From IMG/VR virus record IMGVR_UViG_3300021403_000556, positions 1 to 38,103 of that record: a stretch of DNA of 38,103 bases, one strand, 5' to 3'. The notes below the pieces were generated by a model. That model was not told the origin of the DNA. It worked only from the letters and a program-made list of their open reading frames with translations, and made no database searches. The stretch is from a virus. Of this stretch, positions 1-20,393 are shown piece after piece. Within the stretch, counting starts at the first letter, position 1. Each line of letters starts with the position of its first letter. A program made the translations under genes and the position numbers.

Positions 1-3000
1 ATCTGTCCCTCGCGCTGCATCTGGTTAAGCGTGGTGCGCAGGTCCTTTTTAAAACCGTTCGGATCATTCATGTAGGCGCGATCAAGCCTGGTTGGGTGAA
101 TGTGAATGTCGCCAAACTGGTTTCCGCCACCGCCGCCAGAATTCATCTGCATCAATGCCGGCAGGTTCTTTTTCGTCGCCTGCGGATTCACAACAAACTC
201 GCCATCGTGCAACACGGCGAGTCCTGCATTGCCACTGCCGCGCATCACTGAAAACATGCCGCCAGTATCGAATTGAGGAGGGCCAAAGAGCGTGTTGGCG
301 CGCACATTACGTTCGCCCTGCGTATCGTTGATGTGCTTTTCAGCAGCATCGATGGCAGGGGAAACAGTGTTTTTGAACACATCGTTGCCTTGACTCTTGA
401 GTGTGGAAAGCTGCTTTTGCGAATCAGTACGCAACTGCTCCAGCTGCTGGATCGCGGAGGAGGAGTCGATCTGAAAACCATCAAAGCCCGTCACGATCTG
501 CTGGATATCAGGAAGTACAGTATTGTTCGCGTAATCGTTGGCTTGCTTCTTCCGTTTGCTGCCGCCGAAGATGCCGCCAAATATGCCGCCGATCAATCCG
601 ATGATGCCACCTACGAGCGCGCCGATAGGTCCACCAACCATAAAGCCGCTAAGCGCACCTGACGCCGCGCCAGTTAACGATCCAAGGAGTCCACCGCTGC
701 TCTGGCCAACACCAAAACCGAGTAATCCACCAATTGATCCTCCAACCAGAGCTCCAGTCCCTGCGAGTCCTAAACTTGTGCCAAAGAGAGTACTGATCAC
801 GCCGCCCAGCTTCCCGCTGAGTAAAAGTCCCATCAGAAGGCCACCAACCTGCCCAGTCTTGCCGCCCAACATGCTTCCTGTTAAAGCCAGACCTAGACCA
901 CCCAGAACAGCCAGGTTGCCGCCAGAAAACAAAGCAGACAATCCTGCACCTTTAGAAGCTGACGATTTTGCGGCTGGTGATGAACCACCGATTCCGAACA
1001 ATGCATCCTCGAGCGTACCCGTGTTGAGCGCTGAGCTTGCAGAGCCGAACCCGGATGTGGCGCTTGTGCCGGCTATTGCAGCTCCCAGTCCGCTCCCTGC
1101 TGAAATTCCAGGCAGCGTGAAGCTTTGACCTGCAACGCTGGTGCTCTGCGAGGAAAATCCAGGGATGCTAAATGATCCCGATGAAGAGCCAGCAACCTGG
1201 GTAGCGCTTGAGCCAAAACCCAACCCCAACATGGACAATGGATTCCCGCCACCACCGAATACATTCGCGCCTGTGCTACCTGGGCCAAACACAATCGATC
1301 CGAACAATCCACCAAACGCTGACTTCATCACGCCGAGGCTAAGAATCCATTGCGCCACGATCTGCGCAAAGAGCGCTTCAATATTGCTCAGAATGCGTTT
1401 GCCGATGTTGCCATCCAGGATGTCATCGAAGAGAGACTTGATATCGCTGCCCAGCTGCTGAGTGAGCCGCTGGTTTTCTTCCTCGATCTTTTGATTTGTC
1501 TCAGCCCACACAGCCAGACGTTGAGCTTGCGCAGAGGCGTCGATCTGCACGAGGGCGCCAGCATCGTCCTGATACTTATCGTGCAGCGTGCGTTGATTCT
1601 GATCGATCTGTAAAAGCCGCTTATTCTCTTCATCATTGATCTGCGCATAAGCCCTGAGATATGGAGGAACCATAGCCATCGCCGTTGCCGACTGCGCGTC
1701 CTGTTCCTGCTCCAGGGATTTACTCATCATCAGCGCGCGGGCATCTTGCGTGGCTTTGTCATTCGAGAGGATCTGGGCATTTGCCTGTTGATTGATGGCA
1801 ACGATCTGGCGAATATATTGCGTGACAGTGATGTTGCCCTGGGCAAACGCAGATACGGCTTTGTTGATGGAATCCTGCTTGTCTGCGAGGATCTTCGCGT
1901 CACCTGCTAGACCAGCATCCCGCGCAGCTTTTTCCATCGTCTCGGTTTGTTGCTCTCCAGCAGCATTGATAGCTGCTTCTTTAGCGGCTGTGTCCTGGTG
2001 GATTTTGAGAATCTGCGCCTGGTAAAGAGCTGTCTGCTGAACTTCTGTCTGGCTCAATCCCAACTTGGTAGCGAGCTGCACGCGAAGTTCATTGATGTGA
2101 TCAGTTTCTTCCTGCTTGATTTTCGCCAGGCCAGTGAGATTGTTTTCCGTCACCTGGTCATTGATCGTCATCGTTTCCTGTGCGAGCTGCTTACGAAGCT
2201 GCAGCAGTTCAGCATTCATCCTGTTCTCGGCATCGATTCGCGCAGCCTGCGCCGCCGCTCCGTTTGATGATGTGCCTGTAAACGCCCTATTGATATCGGC
2301 AAGGGCATTTGTATGCTGCTGGGCGATCTGCGAGAAGCCGCTTTTGCCTATCAGTGCTGTCGATTCCTGCGACTGAGCAATAGCATCATTCATCTGCTTG
2401 GTAAGGTCTGCCTGAGCCTGCAGAAGTTGAACGCGTTGCTGGTCTTTTTCTACGGCCTTTGCCTGAAGGCTCGCGCTCGCGGCCTGCTGAATGAGACCGT
2501 TTCCAAGAAAGGCAATGATCTTTCCTTCGAGCGTAGTCTGCGCAGAGACGAGCTGATTGCGCGTTACCTGCGCCGTGGATGCGGCATTTAGTTTAGACAC
2601 TTCCTGGTTAACAAGATCGAGGTGCTGCTGCGCGATCTCAATCGTCTTAGGGTTTATAAACGCTTGCTGCGATGCCTGGACGGTATCCTTGTAGGCCTGC
2701 TGCACCCCTGCGGTGTAGCCGCCCAGATCGTTGGTGACATTGATGATCTCCTCGCCGATCTTCTCGATCATCGGCACCACAGAGGCAAAAATCGCAATAT
2801 TGAAAGCGCTCGCGAGTAAAGGACCGAGCGTGGCGCTGCGCGATAACACCTGATTCAGCGCGCGATTTTGAAGGCCAAAGGTTTGCTCGAGCAGCCTTCC
2901 GGCGACATTGGCGCGCGTCTGCTCGCTCGTGAGGCCCTGGAAGGACGATGTTGCCGCGTTCACAGTGGACGACTGTGCACCCAGCGCCTGGTTAGCCTTG

Positions 3001-3221
3001 GTTACAGCTTCCTGCTCAGCCTCCCACTGCGCCGTGAGAATTGCCACCTGCCCGGCCGCTTTCGATGTTGACGATATCTGATTGTTGAGCGCGAGAGTGG
3101 CCGCCTGCGAAGCGCTGACGATCTTCGCTCCCATCGCGTCGCCGGCATCGCCAATGACCTTAAACCCAGTGACCGCGCCGCCCGGATCGAAAACAATCTG
3201 TAGTTCAACAGGTGTGGCCAT
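1..3221 (-). CDS. Tail tape-measure protein, 3' end cut by the window edge
   Basis: An uninterrupted minus-strand frame of 1,073 codons starts with ATG at 3221 and runs off position 1. The tape measure sets tail length and is ejected into the host envelope. The N-terminal half is Gln/Ala-rich and looks helical. The middle (about residues 620-860) is Gly/Ser-rich with repeated GG(L/I/F) hydrophobic stretches. The C-terminal part has the motif FDTGGM, then VLHDGEFVVNPQATKK, which is typical of the end of tape-measure proteins, so little is probably missing. It begins immediately after the stop of the 129-aa gene. At the usual rule of about 0.15 nm per residue the tail would be about 160 nm, hence siphovirus-like (inference). 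Confidence 0.9.
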   Translation of the reverse strand, partial: MATPVELQIVFDPGGAVTGFKVIGDAGDAMGAKIVSASQAATLALNNQISSTSKAAGQVAILTAQWEAEQEAVTKANQALGAQSSTVNAATSSFQGLTSEQTRANVAGRLLEQTFGLQNRALNQVLSRSATLGPLLASAFNIAIFASVVPMIEKIGEEIINVTNDLGGYTAGVQQAYKDTVQASQQAFINPKTIEIAQQHLDLVNQEVSKLNAASTAQVTRNQLVSAQTTLEGKIIAFLGNGLIQQAASASLQAKAVEKDQQRVQLLQAQADLTKQMNDAIAQSQESTALIGKSGFSQIAQQHTNALADINRAFTGTSSNGAAAQAARIDAENRMNAELLQLRKQLAQETMTINDQVTENNLTGLAKIKQEETDHINELRVQLATKLGLSQTEVQQTALYQAQILKIHQDTAAKEAAINAAGEQQTETMEKAARDAGLAGDAKILADKQDSINKAVSAFAQGNITVTQYIRQIVAINQQANAQILSNDKATQDARALMMSKSLEQEQDAQSATAMAMVPPYLRAYAQINDEENKRLLQIDQNQRTLHDKYQDDAGALVQIDASAQAQRLAVWAETNQKIEEENQRLTQQLGSDIKSLFDDILDGNIGKRILSNIEALFAQIVAQWILSLGVMKSAFGGLFGSIVFGPGSTGANVFGGGGNPLSMLGLGFGSSATQVAGSSSGSFSIPGFSSQSTSVAGQSFTLPGISAGSGLGAAIAGTSATSGFGSASSALNTGTLEDALFGIGGSSPAAKSSASKGAGLSALFSGGNLAVLGGLGLALTGSMLGGKTGQVGGLLMGLLLSGKLGGVISTLFGTSLGLAGTGALVGGSIGGLLGFGVGQSSGGLLGSLTGAASGALSGFMVGGPIGALVGGIIGLIGGIFGGIFGGSKRKKQANDYANNTVLPDIQQIVTGFDGFQIDSSSAIQQLEQLRTDSQKQLSTLKSQGNDVFKNTVSPAIDAAEKHINDTQGERNVRANTLFGPPQFDTGGMFSVMRGSGNAGLAVLHDGEFVVNPQATKKNLPALMQMNSGGGGGNQFGDIHIHPTRLDRAYMNDPNGFKKDLRTTLNQMQREGQ

Positions 3222-3611
3222 TTATTTCTTCCTGAAGCTCATGCCGCATTTGCGGCAGCTGATCGGTGTCTTTGAATACTGGCGCGTCTCACAACGAGGA
3301 CACGCTGGATGCTCGCGTGCGAACTGCTGCGCGGCAGTTTCTATCTCGCGCAGTCCTTCTGCCTCATCCGCGTAAATACTCACGTCTATGTTCGACGCGA
3401 TCATGCCGCGCAGCCACATCAGATATGAGGCATATGGATAAAAACCATCCGCAAGCTTGCGTGCCGGCATCAGCTTGGCAACGGTCTCTGGAGAAGGGTC
3501 CTGCATCAACAGGTTATCCAGCTGGCGGTTTGTATCTTCCTCGCGGAGAGACTCAACCATCAGCTCCAGCGCCGCTGTGCGAATGCCGGCATTGTCCTGC
3601 GTTACGATCAA
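3222..3611 (-). CDS. Small zinc-ribbon protein in the tail-assembly-chaperone slot before the tape measure
   Basis: This 129-aa protein starts with TTG, and its TTGA overlaps the stop of the upstream gene by four bases, so the two are translationally coupled. It ends exactly where the tape measure starts. The N-terminal two thirds are helical and acidic. The C-terminus carries CPRCETRQ...CRKCGMSF, a CxxC-x10-CxxC zinc ribbon. In siphophages two genes between tail tube and tape measure usually encode chaperones that coat the tape measure, often joined by a ribosomal frameshift. No slippery heptamer was seen here. The role is inferred from position; the zinc ribbon is seen directly. Confidence 0.75.
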   Translation of the reverse strand: MIVTQDNAGIRTAALELMVESLREEDTNRQLDNLLMQDPSPETVAKLMPARKLADGFYPYASYLMWLRGMIASNIDVSIYADEAEGLREIETAAQQFAREHPACPRCETRQYSKTPISCRKCGMSFRKK

Positions 3612-4351
3612 GCTGCTGACTCCGCGGCTGCTTCCTGCTGAACGTTGAATATCTGGCTCACAGCTTCAACTTTGTGATACGCGTCCATCTCGCGCTTGAT
3701 CGCTTCCGCGCCTGTTAATGGAGCGCCGTTCACGCCATAACCTTCCACGGATTGAATGAGCTCATCGTAGAGATCGAGCATCACCTTATTGCGCAGGGTG
3801 TAGATCGTGGTGCCGCCGCGCCGCGATCCGCCGATGATCTTGCTCACAGAACCTGTGCGCAGATACTTCTTTTTCTGCTCGATCGACGGAGGAAGGAAGC
3901 GATGCACGAGCCCTTTAAACATCGTGGTCTCATCGCCCGCCTTGGTTTGCGACCACACGGCATCAATGCGCGATTCCACCGTGTCACAGTCAAGAGGGCT
4001 GTCATCTTCCTCGGTCGAAGCAAATACTGAACGCAGAATCCACGAGACGTTGATGGCATGGCGAGGAAACACTTTCTTGAAGTCCTCTGGCGTATTGAGT
4101 TCGCGCCTGTATCCTGTGACCTTACTGACAGTCGATTCAAACAGCTCGATGCCGGCAGTCTGCAGGTCCATGGTGTTTGTCTGTCCCTGGCCATCATTCC
4201 TGCTCGCGACATAAAGACCGTTGAAGTACCGCTCCCAGTCCTGCTGCGTAATGCGACGGAATTCAAAGGTGTAAAGGCGTTTGCCTTCGCGGACGCTGAT
4301 CACGCGAGGCTGGTCAAGCATTAAAAGAGTCGAGGTAGCTGCCGCTTCCAT
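3608..4351 (-). CDS. Probable tail assembly chaperone
   Basis: This 247-aa protein has its start placed at ATG 4351 because CAGGAG lies a proper distance upstream. The frame is open further, to 4456, but that extension reads through the hairpin repeats and has no ribosome site. The sequence is mixed alpha/beta with no signal peptide or membrane segment, and a basic patch near GGSRRGG. It lies directly before the small zinc-ribbon gene and the tape measure, the position of lambda gpG-type chaperones. I do not recognise a diagnostic motif, so the function is from gene order only. Confidence 0.7.
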   Translation of the reverse strand: MEAAATSTLLMLDQPRVISVREGKRLYTFEFRRITQQDWERYFNGLYVASRNDGQGQTNTMDLQTAGIELFESTVSKVTGYRRELNTPEDFKKVFPRHAINVSWILRSVFASTEEDDSPLDCDTVESRIDAVWSQTKAGDETTMFKGLVHRFLPPSIEQKKKYLRTGSVSKIIGGSRRGGTTIYTLRNKVMLDLYDELIQSVEGYGVNGAPLTGAEAIKREMDAYHKVEAVSQIFNVQQEAAAESAA

Positions 4352-4409
4352 GGTGTTTGTCTCCTGATTTGTACAATTTGTGATATTTTGCGATTTTTGC
4401 CAGTTGCCA

Positions 4410-4479
4410 GGAGCGAAGCGGTGCTCCCAAGCAGTGCCGCGAAGTGATGCGGTCACTCATCAGCGAAGTGATGCTGATG
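4410..4479. repeat. Three mini-hairpins with a constant 8-base loop and changing stems
   Basis: Reading the plus strand: GGAGC-GAAGCGGT-GCTCC (4410-4427), CCGC-GAAGTGAT-GCGG (4437-4452) and CATCAGC-GAAGTGAT-GCTGATG (4458-4479). The loop is nearly constant (GAAGYGRT; ATCACTTC in the minus-strand mRNA). The innermost GC/GC pair is constant, while the outer stem bases differ and stay perfectly complementary. The cluster lies 59-128 nt upstream of the chaperone start, in the only sizeable non-coding gap of the tail module. Its function is unknown; a repeated RNA-binding site or a small mobile palindromic element are both possible. Confidence 0.7.
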
Positions 4480-4501
4480 TCTTGCAGATAACTACTATGT
4501 A

Positions 4502-4828
4502 TCACACGAGCGCCAGCGCTGAACAACTTTTTATTTGCCGCGTTGTGATCAGTGCGCCGACAGCAGCAACGTGCAATGCCGGATGGTCGATCACAAACAC
4601 TGCCAGTTCCAGCCTGGTGCTCATGCCTGTTACATCAAAGATTGCCTTAAAGCGTTTCTTCACCGCGTCAATGCCGATTGCAAGGATCTCCGCGATGTCC
4701 TTATTCTGCTTGCCCTGGACCAGAAGAGCCAGCATGCTGAGATCACGAGGCTTGAGCGTGGATGCCACGCGCAAGCCTACGTCATCTCCAATGACCATCA
4801 CTGAGTCTTCTGTATAGACAGGAATCAA
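4502..4828 (-). CDS. LuxR/GerE-type helix-turn-helix protein inside the tail module
   Basis: This 108-aa protein starts at TTG 4828 with GGAG seven bases upstream; its TTGA overlaps the tail tube stop. Residues about 26-76 (LKPRDLSMLALLVQGKQNKD, then IAEILAIGIDAVKKRFKAIF) fit the four-helix GerE/LuxR DNA-binding domain, including the S/T-x-R-x-E-L tail. There is no receiver or autoinducer domain, so this is a stand-alone HTH. ATG at 4798 is an alternative start. A LuxR-type regulator is unexpected between tail tube and chaperones; it may be a moron, or a regulator acting on late or host genes. The domain call is firm, the role unknown. Confidence 0.8.
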   Translation of the reverse strand: MIPVYTEDSVMVIGDDVGLRVASTLKPRDLSMLALLVQGKQNKDIAEILAIGIDAVKKRFKAIFDVTGMSTRLELAVFVIDHPALHVAAVGALITTRQIKSCSALALV

Positions 4829-6216
4829 GCACCAACTCCGTACGCGGACTGGTTATTGATGACCGTGGCCACAAACACTTCCTGCGTCGCTGGCTTGAGC
4901 ACAGCGTTGTCGCCGGCATTCAGCGCCCACATCATTTCCTCGCCAGTTGTGCCGACCTGGAATACATCGGGCATGCTGTAAGGAAAATCGAATGTTGCCT
5001 GCTGCGCCGCGCCAGAGTTGATGGAAATCAGCACTTCTTTCTGCGTGTCATTCTCTGAAATGGTCCGCATGTCATCAGCGCTGGTTGCCTTCACGTTGAG
5101 CGAGTAGTTAGCCCGCTGCTTCAGCACCTTCATCATCGTTGCCCAGAGTCCGCCGCCAGGCGCGCGGTTTGGAGTCATCTCTGCGGTGATGTGAACCTGC
5201 CAATCAGTAACGCGCTCTTTGATGCTGCTGAGCGCCGTGGTTGCGGTTGGAAGCGCTGCGCCGGCTACAAACCCAGTGGCAGGTTCCGTAAACGTAGCTG
5301 CAGCCGCGAATGGACCGCCAGCCTGCTTTGTTTCCGTGCCTGTTGTTATGGACGCATACACATTCACTCCTGTTACTCCAGGAGGAAGTGTGGCCGGCAT
5401 CGTCACCTTGGAAACGCTGTTGGCGGGCACAGCGATAGAAACTTCAAGGCTGCCCAATGTCTCGCCGGCCGCGTCCACGTAAGTGAATTTATAAAATGCA
5501 GTGCGAGCGGCCTGAGCGCCCAGCACTGTGGTTGCCAGCGTGAATGGAAAGCGCGCGTCTGTCACGTCCGGAGCGGATGGACCGATCTTAATATCGGCAT
5601 CAGAGCCAAAGAGAAAGAGCGGCGCGCTCAGCTGAGGAAACGCGACAGCGCCATCAACTTTTTTGCCGCTGCCCTGCATCTTCCATTGCAGCGAGATGGG
5701 TCCTGATTCTTTTCCGCTGATGACCAGGTCGAGAATGGCCATATCAGGAAATTGATAGATCACATCATTGGTTTCCTGAAGCAGAAGCGTGGTTACAGGC
5801 GCTTGATTTGTCGCCTGAAGGAACTTCATCGTATGGGTGAACGGTCCAGAGCCTGTCACGGTCTCGCTGCCCAGGATGAAGAAGAGACACCAGCCGATCA
5901 GGAAAGCATCTGCATCCATCGTTGCATCGAACGAGGTGTCTTCCATCTGACGCAACTTCACAGCGCCGAACTGATGGCCTTTGTTAGCCATCTGCTCATC
6001 CGTATAAAACGTCGGTGTGTGCACAGCGTTGTAATTGCCCTGGTTGCGCGGGCGCTGCGTATAGCTGGCGGCCGCCACAGGAGTGAGAAAGGTATTTTGT
6101 TTGTTCGGCGCGATCGCAAGATTGCGAATATCGAGCACGTCCTGCGGCTCGTAAGCAAAGCGCAGGACGAAGAAGCGCAGAATCCAGTTAAAGAGACAGA
6201 TGACTAATCTATCCAA
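4825..6216 (-). CDS. Major tail tube protein with an Fn3/Ig-like insertion
   Basis: This 463-aa protein starts at TTG 6216, chosen because a perfect AGGAGG (complement at 6222-6227) lies six to seven bases upstream. Position between head-tail connector genes and chaperone/tape measure genes, and the overall beta-rich sequence, indicate the tail tube. Residues about 238-330 form a separate Fn3/Ig-like module (FYKFTYVDAAGETLGS ... PPGVTGVNVYASI ... AGGPFA), a common decoration on siphophage tube proteins. The first 20 residues are unusually hydrophobic (LVICLFNWILRFFVLRF), odd for a cytoplasmically assembled tube subunit. No sheath gene accompanies it, so the tail is probably non-contractile. 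Confidence 0.8.
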   Translation of the reverse strand: MDRLVICLFNWILRFFVLRFAYEPQDVLDIRNLAIAPNKQNTFLTPVAAASYTQRPRNQGNYNAVHTPTFYTDEQMANKGHQFGAVKLRQMEDTSFDATMDADAFLIGWCLFFILGSETVTGSGPFTHTMKFLQATNQAPVTTLLLQETNDVIYQFPDMAILDLVISGKESGPISLQWKMQGSGKKVDGAVAFPQLSAPLFLFGSDADIKIGPSAPDVTDARFPFTLATTVLGAQAARTAFYKFTYVDAAGETLGSLEVSIAVPANSVSKVTMPATLPPGVTGVNVYASITTGTETKQAGGPFAAAATFTEPATGFVAGAALPTATTALSSIKERVTDWQVHITAEMTPNRAPGGGLWATMMKVLKQRANYSLNVKATSADDMRTISENDTQKEVLISINSGAAQQATFDFPYSMPDVFQVGTTGEEMMWALNAGDNAVLKPATQEVFVATVINNQSAYGVGA

Positions 6217-15452: not shown

Positions 15453-16933
15453 TGCACGCTCCCTGGCTCAGTCTGCTGTCCTGGCTGCTGCGGCGTTTCA
15501 AGTTGCTTCAGCGCGAGCGCGAGCGTGTTCTGCTCAGGCACCAATTGAGCCTGGCGCGTTTTCTTTTCCTGTTGCGCTTTTTCAAATTCATCGGCGTCCA
15601 CTTCCACACCGATCTGGGTGAGTACTGCATGCGAGGCGCGCGCGGCCGTCTTCGACTGGATGTATCCGTTTTCCTCCATGATGGAAACGGCATTCACGAC
15701 AGCAGCCATCGTGGAAGCAGCTTTATCCAGGTCCTTGATCATGAGATCAGGCGTCTGAATGGTGACAGTGGTATCAATGCCTTCAGGCAGTACGCCGTGA
15801 TAAATGCCCTGCTGAATCACGAACACCACAACCTTCTGCATGAGAGCGCGCAAGTGATTCTGCCGATCCGTAAGTTTCTTTCCGGTAGGACCTGTCATCT
15901 CGTCGGCAGTGGAACGGTTACTGTCAACCGGATCGGCAAAGAACCATGCCGGCAGGCCAGCTCCGCCCAGGCCATAGAGCTTGATCGCGCGCGTGGCTTC
16001 CGACATATCAGCGCCCTGGAAGCTCGGCGTTTGCGCTTCAATCTTTACGTTTTCATTTGTGACCTGGACGCTGCCCTGTTTGGGAGGATTCTTTGTTACT
16101 TTGTCTGTCCAGCGTTTAAGTTCAGGCTCACCAGCGCCGGTAATGGTGTAGTGCCAGACGAATGCATTGAGGAAGCGCACACGGTCCGCAAAGTCAAACA
16201 TCATCTGGTCGAAGACGTCGATCCAATCAGCCAGGCTGAACAATTCAGAGAGTCCGCGGCTCGCGCCTTTTGCCTTGTTGATTGCGGAATAAAAGCAATC
16301 GCCCTTGAGCTGCCCGAATGTCTCAGAAGACGGATCTTCATCCATGCTGATGATCTCGAGACGCTGGCCAATAGTCTCGCCCTGCTTGCGCTTCAATATC
16401 ACAGCGACAGGAATCAAGATCGGCTGCAACCCATTACCTGTTTCGATCGCGCCATATTCGACGGAATCAATCTGCATGGGATCGATATATCCCAGGCGCA
16501 CTTTGCCGCTGACTGGATTTACCGCAACAGGGATGCATAGTTCACCAAACGTCGTCAGCTCATCGCACCAATCGCGAGAAGATGCGCCCATATTGTTGAC
16601 TGTGTCTTCCCAGAATTGCTGCAGAACTTCCTGCACGGTTGCGTCTGTGGCGGCCGGCTTAAATCCTTCGCCGACAACATAGCTCGTGATCACTTCGACG
16701 ATGCGCTTACCGAAAGGCGTGGTCGATTTGAGATAGAACGCGACGGCTTGCATTCTCTCGTGCATGAGAGGATTCAGGTCGCGAATCGTGTTGGGCGAAG
16801 TGATGCGGCGGAATTTCGCGTCCTCACCGTCTGCAGCGGTAAGACCAAAGAGGAATGGCGTGACAGCCTCAGCAGTGAGCTTGCCAATCGTGTTTTTGAT
16901 TTTCGTTGCGACGGTCTTAACTAGCGATCCCAC
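15449..16933 (-). CDS. Phage portal protein
   Basis: This 494-aa protein lies between large terminase and Mu F-like genes, overlapping both slightly. Portal-like features are the N-terminal ERMQAVAFYLKSTTPFGKRI, a central stem-type helical region and GLPAWFFADPVDSNRSTADEM, followed by a helical Gln-rich C-terminus. The dodecameric ring would form the DNA entry vertex. It may belong to the lambda B-like or the Mu gp29-like portal group; I cannot decide by eye. Confidence 0.88.
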   Translation of the reverse strand: MGSLVKTVATKIKNTIGKLTAEAVTPFLFGLTAADGEDAKFRRITSPNTIRDLNPLMHERMQAVAFYLKSTTPFGKRIVEVITSYVVGEGFKPAATDATVQEVLQQFWEDTVNNMGASSRDWCDELTTFGELCIPVAVNPVSGKVRLGYIDPMQIDSVEYGAIETGNGLQPILIPVAVILKRKQGETIGQRLEIISMDEDPSSETFGQLKGDCFYSAINKAKGASRGLSELFSLADWIDVFDQMMFDFADRVRFLNAFVWHYTITGAGEPELKRWTDKVTKNPPKQGSVQVTNENVKIEAQTPSFQGADMSEATRAIKLYGLGGAGLPAWFFADPVDSNRSTADEMTGPTGKKLTDRQNHLRALMQKVVVFVIQQGIYHGVLPEGIDTTVTIQTPDLMIKDLDKAASTMAAVVNAVSIMEENGYIQSKTAARASHAVLTQIGVEVDADEFEKAQQEKKTRQAQLVPEQNTLALALKQLETPQQPGQQTEPGSVQ

Positions 16934-19528: not shown

Positions 19529-19959
19529 GCGCTTGCTCCGTGTGCTCTCTCTCTGTCGCGATCGTTGATTCGTCTTTCGAGATCATCAAACCGCGTCAAT
19601 ATTTTTTCTGTCTGCGTGGCTATGTGTCCCGTCAACACGCGCTGCTCATACGCTTCCTGGTTGTCTTTGTTTGCGATCGCATTCACCGCGTCAGCCAAAC
19701 GTTGCTGCGAAACTGCGTTGTCCTTGGCGACGCCAATCAGCCGCTCGCCGATATCGAGTACTCGCGATCCTGCCTGGCTGGCAAAAGCAAGCGCCACGAC
19801 GCCGAGAATCGCTGGCGTTCCTAAATGCTGCACGGTATCAATCAGCGCCTTTGGTTCACGCGTTGCGAGCACATAGGCGATAGTTCCAGCCGCGCCCATG
19901 CTGCCGCCGAGCAAAATGCCCGGTACCTTCGACAGCAACTCTTTAGGCGAAAGGTTCAC
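19525..19959 (-). CDS. Membrane-anchored coiled-coil protein (Mu DUF2730-like position)
   Basis: This 144-aa protein has two hydrophobic segments (about 14-32, GILLGGSMGAAGTIAYVLA, and 47-62) followed by a charged helix that should form a coiled coil (EKILTRFDDLERRINDRDRE). It sits between the holin-like and winged-helix genes, as the DUF2730-type gene does in Mu-like phages. A spanin or lysis accessory role is possible. Confidence 0.65.
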   Translation of the reverse strand: MNLSPKELLSKVPGILLGGSMGAAGTIAYVLATREPKALIDTVQHLGTPAILGVVALAFASQAGSRVLDIGERLIGVAKDNAVSQQRLADAVNAIANKDNQEAYEQRVLTGHIATQTEKILTRFDDLERRINDRDRERAHGASA

Positions 19960-20303
19960 TTCGGCTGCACTCCGTTTTTACTGAGAGGCGCAACACCACC
20001 GCTCGCAAGCTGTGCCAGCATTCCCTTGGCTACATCAACCGCCAGCTGCTTCGGATCGATCTTGGCGTTGACTGCAGCTACAGCCTGCGCCTGCTTCACT
20101 TCAGCCACGCCAGCCAGTAACGCTTCCGCGATTCGTTCAGCTTTTGCTCCCAGGCCTGCGGCAGCTCCGGCCGCAGTCAAGATGGCCAGGGCCTCCGTGT
20201 TGCTGATGGCGTTCAAATACCAGCCGGTAAGCGCAACGATTGCCATCGCGATAGCCGAGAAATACGTCTTCTTTCCCTTCAGAAATTCTCTGATCTTCGC
20301 CAC
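19956..20303 (-). CDS. Holin-like small membrane protein
   Basis: This 115-aa protein starts at GTG 20303, set by AGGAGG (complement 20310-20315) six bases upstream; the frame is open to 20369 but the extra residues run into the inverted repeat. After a basic head (VAKIREFLKGKKTYF) come two hydrophobic stretches, IAMAIVALTGWYL and ALAILTAAGAAAGLG, then an Ala-rich helix. K-x-x-Y-x-x-A-x-A near the first segment is typical of phage holins. It would form the membrane lesion that releases or activates the lysozyme. Confidence 0.7.
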   Translation of the reverse strand: MAKIREFLKGKKTYFSAIAMAIVALTGWYLNAISNTEALAILTAAGAAAGLGAKAERIAEALLAGVAEVKQAQAVAAVNAKIDPKQLAVDVAKGMLAQLASGGVAPLSKNGVQPK

Positions 20304-20355
20304 CAACCACCTCCTGCAGTGCAGTGCCAGGTCAGACCATGCTCGAAACTTGGCC

Positions 20356-20393
20356 GTGTGAAACGTCACAAGGGGGGTTGTGACGTTTCACAC
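20356..20393. repeat. Perfect 16-bp inverted repeat with a G6 loop
   Basis: GTGTGAAACGTCACAA (20356-20371), six G, then TTGTGACGTTTCACAC (20378-20393) form a perfect 16-bp stem. Each arm is itself near-palindromic (TGTGA-N4-TCACA), so the DNA holds two such half-site pairs. No T-run flanks it, so a simple intrinsic terminator is unlikely. It lies in the 170-base gap between lipoprotein and holin genes. It could be a regulator-binding site or a blocking RNA hairpin. Confidence 0.85.

Follow-up and report, generated by a model that had tools for sequence, protein, structure and literature searches.

A single operon of a tailed phage has to supply many tail-tube subunits but few chaperones and tape measures, for which frameshifting is the textbook solution. 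A tail protein followed by two small genes and then the tape measure is the canonical place of the tail assembly chaperones. Control can also lie in a phage mRNA leader, and at gene 32 of T4, gp32 recognizes a pseudoknot together with an unstructured leader. The translational operator of the T4/RB69 DNA polymerase (gp43) is a phage mRNA leader hairpin that is recognized through its loop (UAAC core) and mediates autogenous repression; it is a single hairpin ~40 nt from the start codon of a replication gene, and the operator overlaps the ribosome site (PMC3014915).

Here, we describe a tandem hairpin array in a tail operon of the window, by which we mean the whole 38,103-nucleotide stretch of viral DNA that was analyzed. 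Phage autogenous operators such as that of T4 gp43 would be its nearest working analogues. As in the gp43 operator, a leader hairpin lies 5′ of a phage gene and is a candidate for recognition through its loop, whereas the present element has two to three tandem hairpins, the loop AYCNCUUC, tail genes downstream, and a putative factor. Membership in the gp43-type operators was rejected on account of the different loop and gene, though the two may still work alike. The locus shares with the T4 gene 32 leader a structured phage mRNA leader 5′ of the ribosome site (PMC3014915), and differs from it in its tandem hairpins and in showing pairing between loop and Shine-Dalgarno (SD) sequence in a sister clade only. 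That sister clade resembles the SD/anti-SD switches of riboswitches and ribosomal protein leaders, as two alternatives are open to its hairpin 3: self-closure, or pairing of the SD with the loop and 5′ arm. Unlike those leaders, the element is without a ligand-binding core of a known class, has no Rfam match, and shows no such switch in the window's clade. Finally, the lambda G/GT system occupies the same gene position and faces the same need for few chaperones per many tail-tube subunits. Unlike the G/GT frameshift, control at this locus would be exerted ahead of initiation, through the leader, and the second small gene, which has a possible start of its own, shares 4 nt with the first.

Structure and strand of the hairpin array

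The first-pass annotation, made from the sequence of the window, had reported three hairpins with a common octaloop at 4410-4479, and the sequence confirms this exactly (Table 1). Dinucleotide shuffling of the window, repeated 200 times, never yielded a comparable triple of octaloop hairpins. The window holds four copies of GCGAAGYGRTGC, the fourth of which, at 16795, is intragenic and without a stem. The minus-strand fold consists of exactly the three hairpins (-39.3 kcal/mol, z -2.4), whereas the plus-strand fold differs from the array (z -0.7). The RNA is the minus strand, in the sense of the tail operon. Read on this strand, hairpin 2 comprises a 4-bp stem and four further pairs beyond a 1-nt bulge (4433-4457), with GCGG(CACU) forming its 3′ side, and hairpin 3 has the core GGGAGC-ACCGCUUC-GCUCCU, with a G.U extension that is absent from the plus strand. 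As the G.U pairs favor the minus strand, the loop is AYCRCUUC and not GAAGYGRT, the plus-strand form in which it had been annotated. In the window, the hairpins stop at least 55 nt 5′ of the start codon, a distance at which they do not obviously occlude the ribosome directly.

Table 1. Coordinates of the leader, its hairpins, and the neighboring genes in the window.
Feature	Position	Strand	Details
Hairpin 1 (first on mRNA)	4458..4479	-	CAUCAGC-AUCACUUC-GCUGAUG, 7 bp, octaloop
Hairpin 2	4433..4457	-	AGUG(A)CCGC-AUCACUUC-GCGGCACU, 4+4 bp, one bulged A, octaloop
Hairpin 3	4407..4430	-	UUGGGAGC-ACCGCUUC-GCUCCUGG, 5 Watson-Crick and 3 G.U pairs on minus strand
Plus-strand reading	4410-4427	+	GGAGC-GAAGCGGT-GCTCC
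Plus-strand reading	4437-4452	+	CCGC-GAAGTGAT-GCGG
Plus-strand reading	4458-4479	+	CATCAGC-GAAGTGAT-GCTGATG
Whole leader element	4393..4488	-	Match to covariance model R2, E=0.0042 (4.1e-4, window record alone)
Shine-Dalgarno AGGAG of downstream gene	4361..4365	-	Read directly; aligned starts
247-aa gene, tail-assembly-chaperone position, preceded by leader	3608..4351	-	Function by synteny
129-aa gene, second chaperone-like position	3222..3611	-	4-nt overlap with 247-aa gene
Tape-measure-like ORF, runs off left end	3..3221	-	PHROG match here to unknown function only
463-aa tail protein, 5′ of leader	4825..6216	-	
LuxR-type HTH gene, between tail gene and leader	4502..4828	-	GerE, E=3.9e-6

Neighboring genes

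The predicted structure of the 247-aa protein (pLDDT 82) had no match in the PDB and only weak viral fold matches, several of them named tail assembly chaperone; because the fold is without a solid match, the chaperone name rests on synteny. At the homologous locus L185, the counterpart of the tape-measure-like ORF matches tape measure (E=4e-4), and a 337-aa protein in the place of the 463-aa protein matches the tail family phrog_290 (E=1.7e-11). The predicted fold of the 463-aa protein itself was of low confidence and was discarded. Because the left end of the record truncates the tape-measure-like ORF, the sequence is either incomplete or permuted.

The GerE match upholds the annotated placement of the array between a LuxR-type gene and the gene in the tail-chaperone position. 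The LuxR-type HTH gene overlaps the end of the 463-aa tail gene. None of the other leader copies tested had a homologue of it alongside, and it is thus possibly a recent insertion. A comparison of 15 leader-bearing with 15 other contigs yielded no accessory gene family common to all leader phages and absent elsewhere, so no cognate regulator was identified.

Covariation and loop conservation across relatives

Across 46 distinct hairpins, 91.0% of cells were paired compared with 63.6% (sd 1.8) after shuffling, and the covariation score was 0.70 compared with 0.19, relatedness being uncorrected in both comparisons. Two-sided changes were seen in seven of the eight stem pairs, and the covariation score of slid versions dropped to 0.08-0.15. 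Selection on both structure and loop, as annotated from the three window copies, is borne out. With both pair types admitted alike, the sense strand carried 30 G.U against 9 A.C (p=0.001, relatedness uncorrected). Loop positions C5, U6, and C8 were invariant, A1 and U7 nearly so, and the closing pair was C-G, all under a strict search pattern; since looser loops exist, part of this invariance is imposed by that pattern. Stems varying freely around a constant loop point to a putative recognition of the loop.

Distribution and specificity

Homologous arrays were found in ~40 related phages and prophages, located in the gap 5′ of the homologue of the 247-aa gene, with the exceptions L260 and L261. 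A DNA pattern scan for two copies of GCGAAGYGRTGC across 2.9 million viral contigs returned 20 contigs, in 17 of which the array adjoins homologues of the window's tail genes (some of these contigs being near-identical to each other, and protein identity extending down to ~30%), and a search with the 247-aa protein returned 59 loci. The two-copy pattern was also applied to bacterial genomes, where the matches checked were GC-rich tandem repeats with mostly 2-4 bp stems and were rejected as arrays.

Covariance-model searches, which the first-pass annotation had proposed, produced many further copies. Among 60 loci, the single-hairpin model, R1, matched this gap only, bar a few marginal matches at E of at least 0.15. 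The leader model, R2, was built from 20 leaders of the sister clade (group 2) with the window's clade kept out of training, and it recovered group 1 and the window unseen (window E=0.0042). In 36 viral records, R2 found one significant copy each in 21, always in this gap, with the next match at E=0.029. Since no phage record contained more than one significant copy, the element is not a dispersed palindromic repeat, and the annotated alternative of miniature palindromic elements does not hold. A REP/MITE-like dispersed element was rejected likewise, as R1 and R2 match this gap only in phage records, marginal matches aside. R2 gave 15 matches in 397 genomes. One of these, L262, comes from the split end of a prophage that was already represented by L235, and a weak match in L263 (E=0.006) was not judged real. 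Two of the 15, at L260:1116-1208 (+) and L261:8613-8703 (-), stand before a short gene of a different kind, and the large ORF behind that gene is tape-measure-like in L261; the leader type is thus usable for another gene.

The element belongs to transposable (B3-like terminase) phages of Acidobacteriota. The window encodes a Mu-type transposase, and its phage terminase is similar to that of B3-like transposable siphophages (~30-35% identity). Such phages are prophages of Acidobacteriota, with the 247-aa gene present in 2 of 396 genomes across the phylum and in 18 of 397 in one order; the gene was found in none of 145 genomes in the phylum of a Verrucomicrobia genome, a result uninformative alone.

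The first-pass annotation had recognized no described family. In agreement, Rfam 15 gave no match at or above the gathering score for the window and 18 homologous loci, the sub-threshold matches at the site being to unrelated lncRNA and snoRNA models, and a literature search found no description of such an element within the searched set, beyond which other publications are possible. The array represents a previously undescribed RNA element family, adding one that is absent from Rfam 15. A CsrA/RsmA site, with GGA in a hairpin loop, was rejected as the loops here are AYCNCUUC. Lambda boxB/nut sites have a GNRA-like pentaloop and lie upstream of the terminators that are overridden; the loop here is an octaloop, and the group 2 array is downstream of a terminator-like hairpin.

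Clades of the leader and pairing with the Shine-Dalgarno sequence

Group 1, the window's own, is built of two or three octaloop hairpins. In group 2, hairpin 1 has the loop ACCNCUUC or similar, hairpin 2 has a loop A...CUNC of varying length, and hairpin 3 has a 5-6 bp stem with a 5-nt pyrimidine loop, ~45-63 nt 5′ of the start codon. Many group 2 loci carry a G+C hairpin and T run 5′ of hairpin 1, mainly identified by inspection; a simple terminator scan reported a site there in L185 and not in L238. A third set of homologues (L161, L164, L168, and relatives) has no hairpins and an ordinary intrinsic terminator in the gap. Leader-bearing rows clustered strongly on the chaperone tree, with five changes compared with 31.7 when shuffled, group 2 falling mainly in one 24-row clade and group 1 in another. 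L234 and L241, labeled leaderless on this tree, show A...CUUC loops of 6-8 nt by eye, so the labeling errs on the conservative side. In more distant homologues (L183, L198, L199, L327, L330, L331, and L334), two or three hairpins occupy this gap, ~60-250 nt 5′ of the homologue of the 247-aa gene, with varying stems and with CCUUGCUY in place of AYCNCUUC as their constant octaloop. That the layout is kept while the octaloop is clade-specific points to a specific recognizer.

In 25 group 2 leaders, hairpin 3 was complementary to the SD over a mean of 6.7 nt of uninterrupted Watson-Crick pairing, compared with 5.0 nt when partners were permuted; 0 of 20,000 permutations, which ignore relatedness, reached 6.7 nt. 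Control stretches gave 3.4 nt. The partners change together, CCCUC with GAGGG and CCUUC with GAAGG, and the pairing extends through GGGU or GGUU with ACCC or AACC downstream. By eye, the same complementarity is present in L323, L325, L260, and L261, which were outside the 25-leader test. The extended match is incompatible with a closed upper stem of hairpin 3, suggesting a two-state switch. In the window's clade, neither sequestration of the SD by its longest complement (5.7 nt compared with 5.2 expected) nor a duplex of the upstream region with the SD (p=0.95) was above chance.

Proposed function and alternative explanations

Taking these observations together, we think it probable that the array is a cis-acting mRNA leader in which tandem loop-recognition hairpins tune translation of the tail chaperone/tape-measure module. 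The two to three tandem hairpins would present the same octaloop repeatedly, forming a multivalent site for one trans factor, most likely a protein, and the leader would reduce, or gate, chaperone-module translation compared with that of the tail protein encoded upstream. In group 2, pairing of the loop and 5′ arm of hairpin 3 with the SD would switch the ribosome site between open and sequestered states. A third octaloop hairpin occupies the position of the SD-matching hairpin in the window's clade, so repression there would depend on the bound factor. More tentatively, that factor may be a phage tail protein, either the chaperone or the neighboring tail protein, which would bind its own leader via the multivalent octaloops and so set how much tail protein is made per chaperone and tape measure; loop and protein would then co-evolve, so that clades differ (AYCNCUUC versus CCUUGCUY). 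If translational tuning holds true, the tail-stoichiometry step would be served by a dedicated RNA control element in a poorly studied host phylum. The two constant-loop classes at one place would form a natural experiment, and would point to a specific, searchable recognizer.

The main rival, which we regard as unlikely, is an mRNA processing or stability element, in which an RNase cuts or protects the array and so separates abundant tail-protein mRNA from chaperone/tape-measure mRNA. In favor of this, the array separates a tail structural gene precisely from two genes whose expected copy is low, its hairpins are tandem and stable, and an intrinsic terminator occupies the gap in homologues without it. 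However, double-strand RNases mostly read the stem, whereas a constant loop on freely changing stems argues for loop recognition, and translation is indicated by the hairpin 3/SD covariation of the sister clade. The same covariation favors a translational role over a transcription element (an attenuator, a terminator, or a nut/put-like antitermination site) that would control read-through into the chaperone genes. Sister phages do have terminator-like hairpins with T runs in the same gap, and by inspection, such hairpins lie 5′ of the array in many group 2 loci. Yet no T runs follow the hairpins of the array, no intrinsic terminator (G+C hairpin with T run) was found in window 4300-4900, nor any promoter consensus in the window gap, and the group 2 array, being downstream of the terminator, is on the wrong side for antitermination there. 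We consider termination or antitermination improbable, and less likely than RNA processing.

It is very doubtful that the octaloop pairs in cis with the gene start region (AUGGAAGCGG, complementary to CCGCUUC; 4341-4351, minus strand). In most of the window's clade, codons 2-4 do match loop ACCGCUUC over 6-7 nt, but related MEA starts explain this match, the loop remains ACCGCUUC where the start differs (L151, L153, L154, and L230), and AUCACUUC, the loop of two of the window's three hairpins, does not match the start. Chance, or a DNA-level palindromic or mobile miniature repeat, is scarcely credible: although the arms are palindromic, each phage has the array at one fixed location, and the sense-strand G.U excess, the stem covariation, and the shuffled windows, devoid of triples, all argue against it.

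Elsewhere in the window, GTGTGAAACGTCACA...TGTGACGTTTCACAC at 20356-20393 forms a perfect inverted repeat of 15 bp around an 8-nt loop. The gene at 19956-20369 (minus strand) starts there, and the repeat may be an operator or a terminator.
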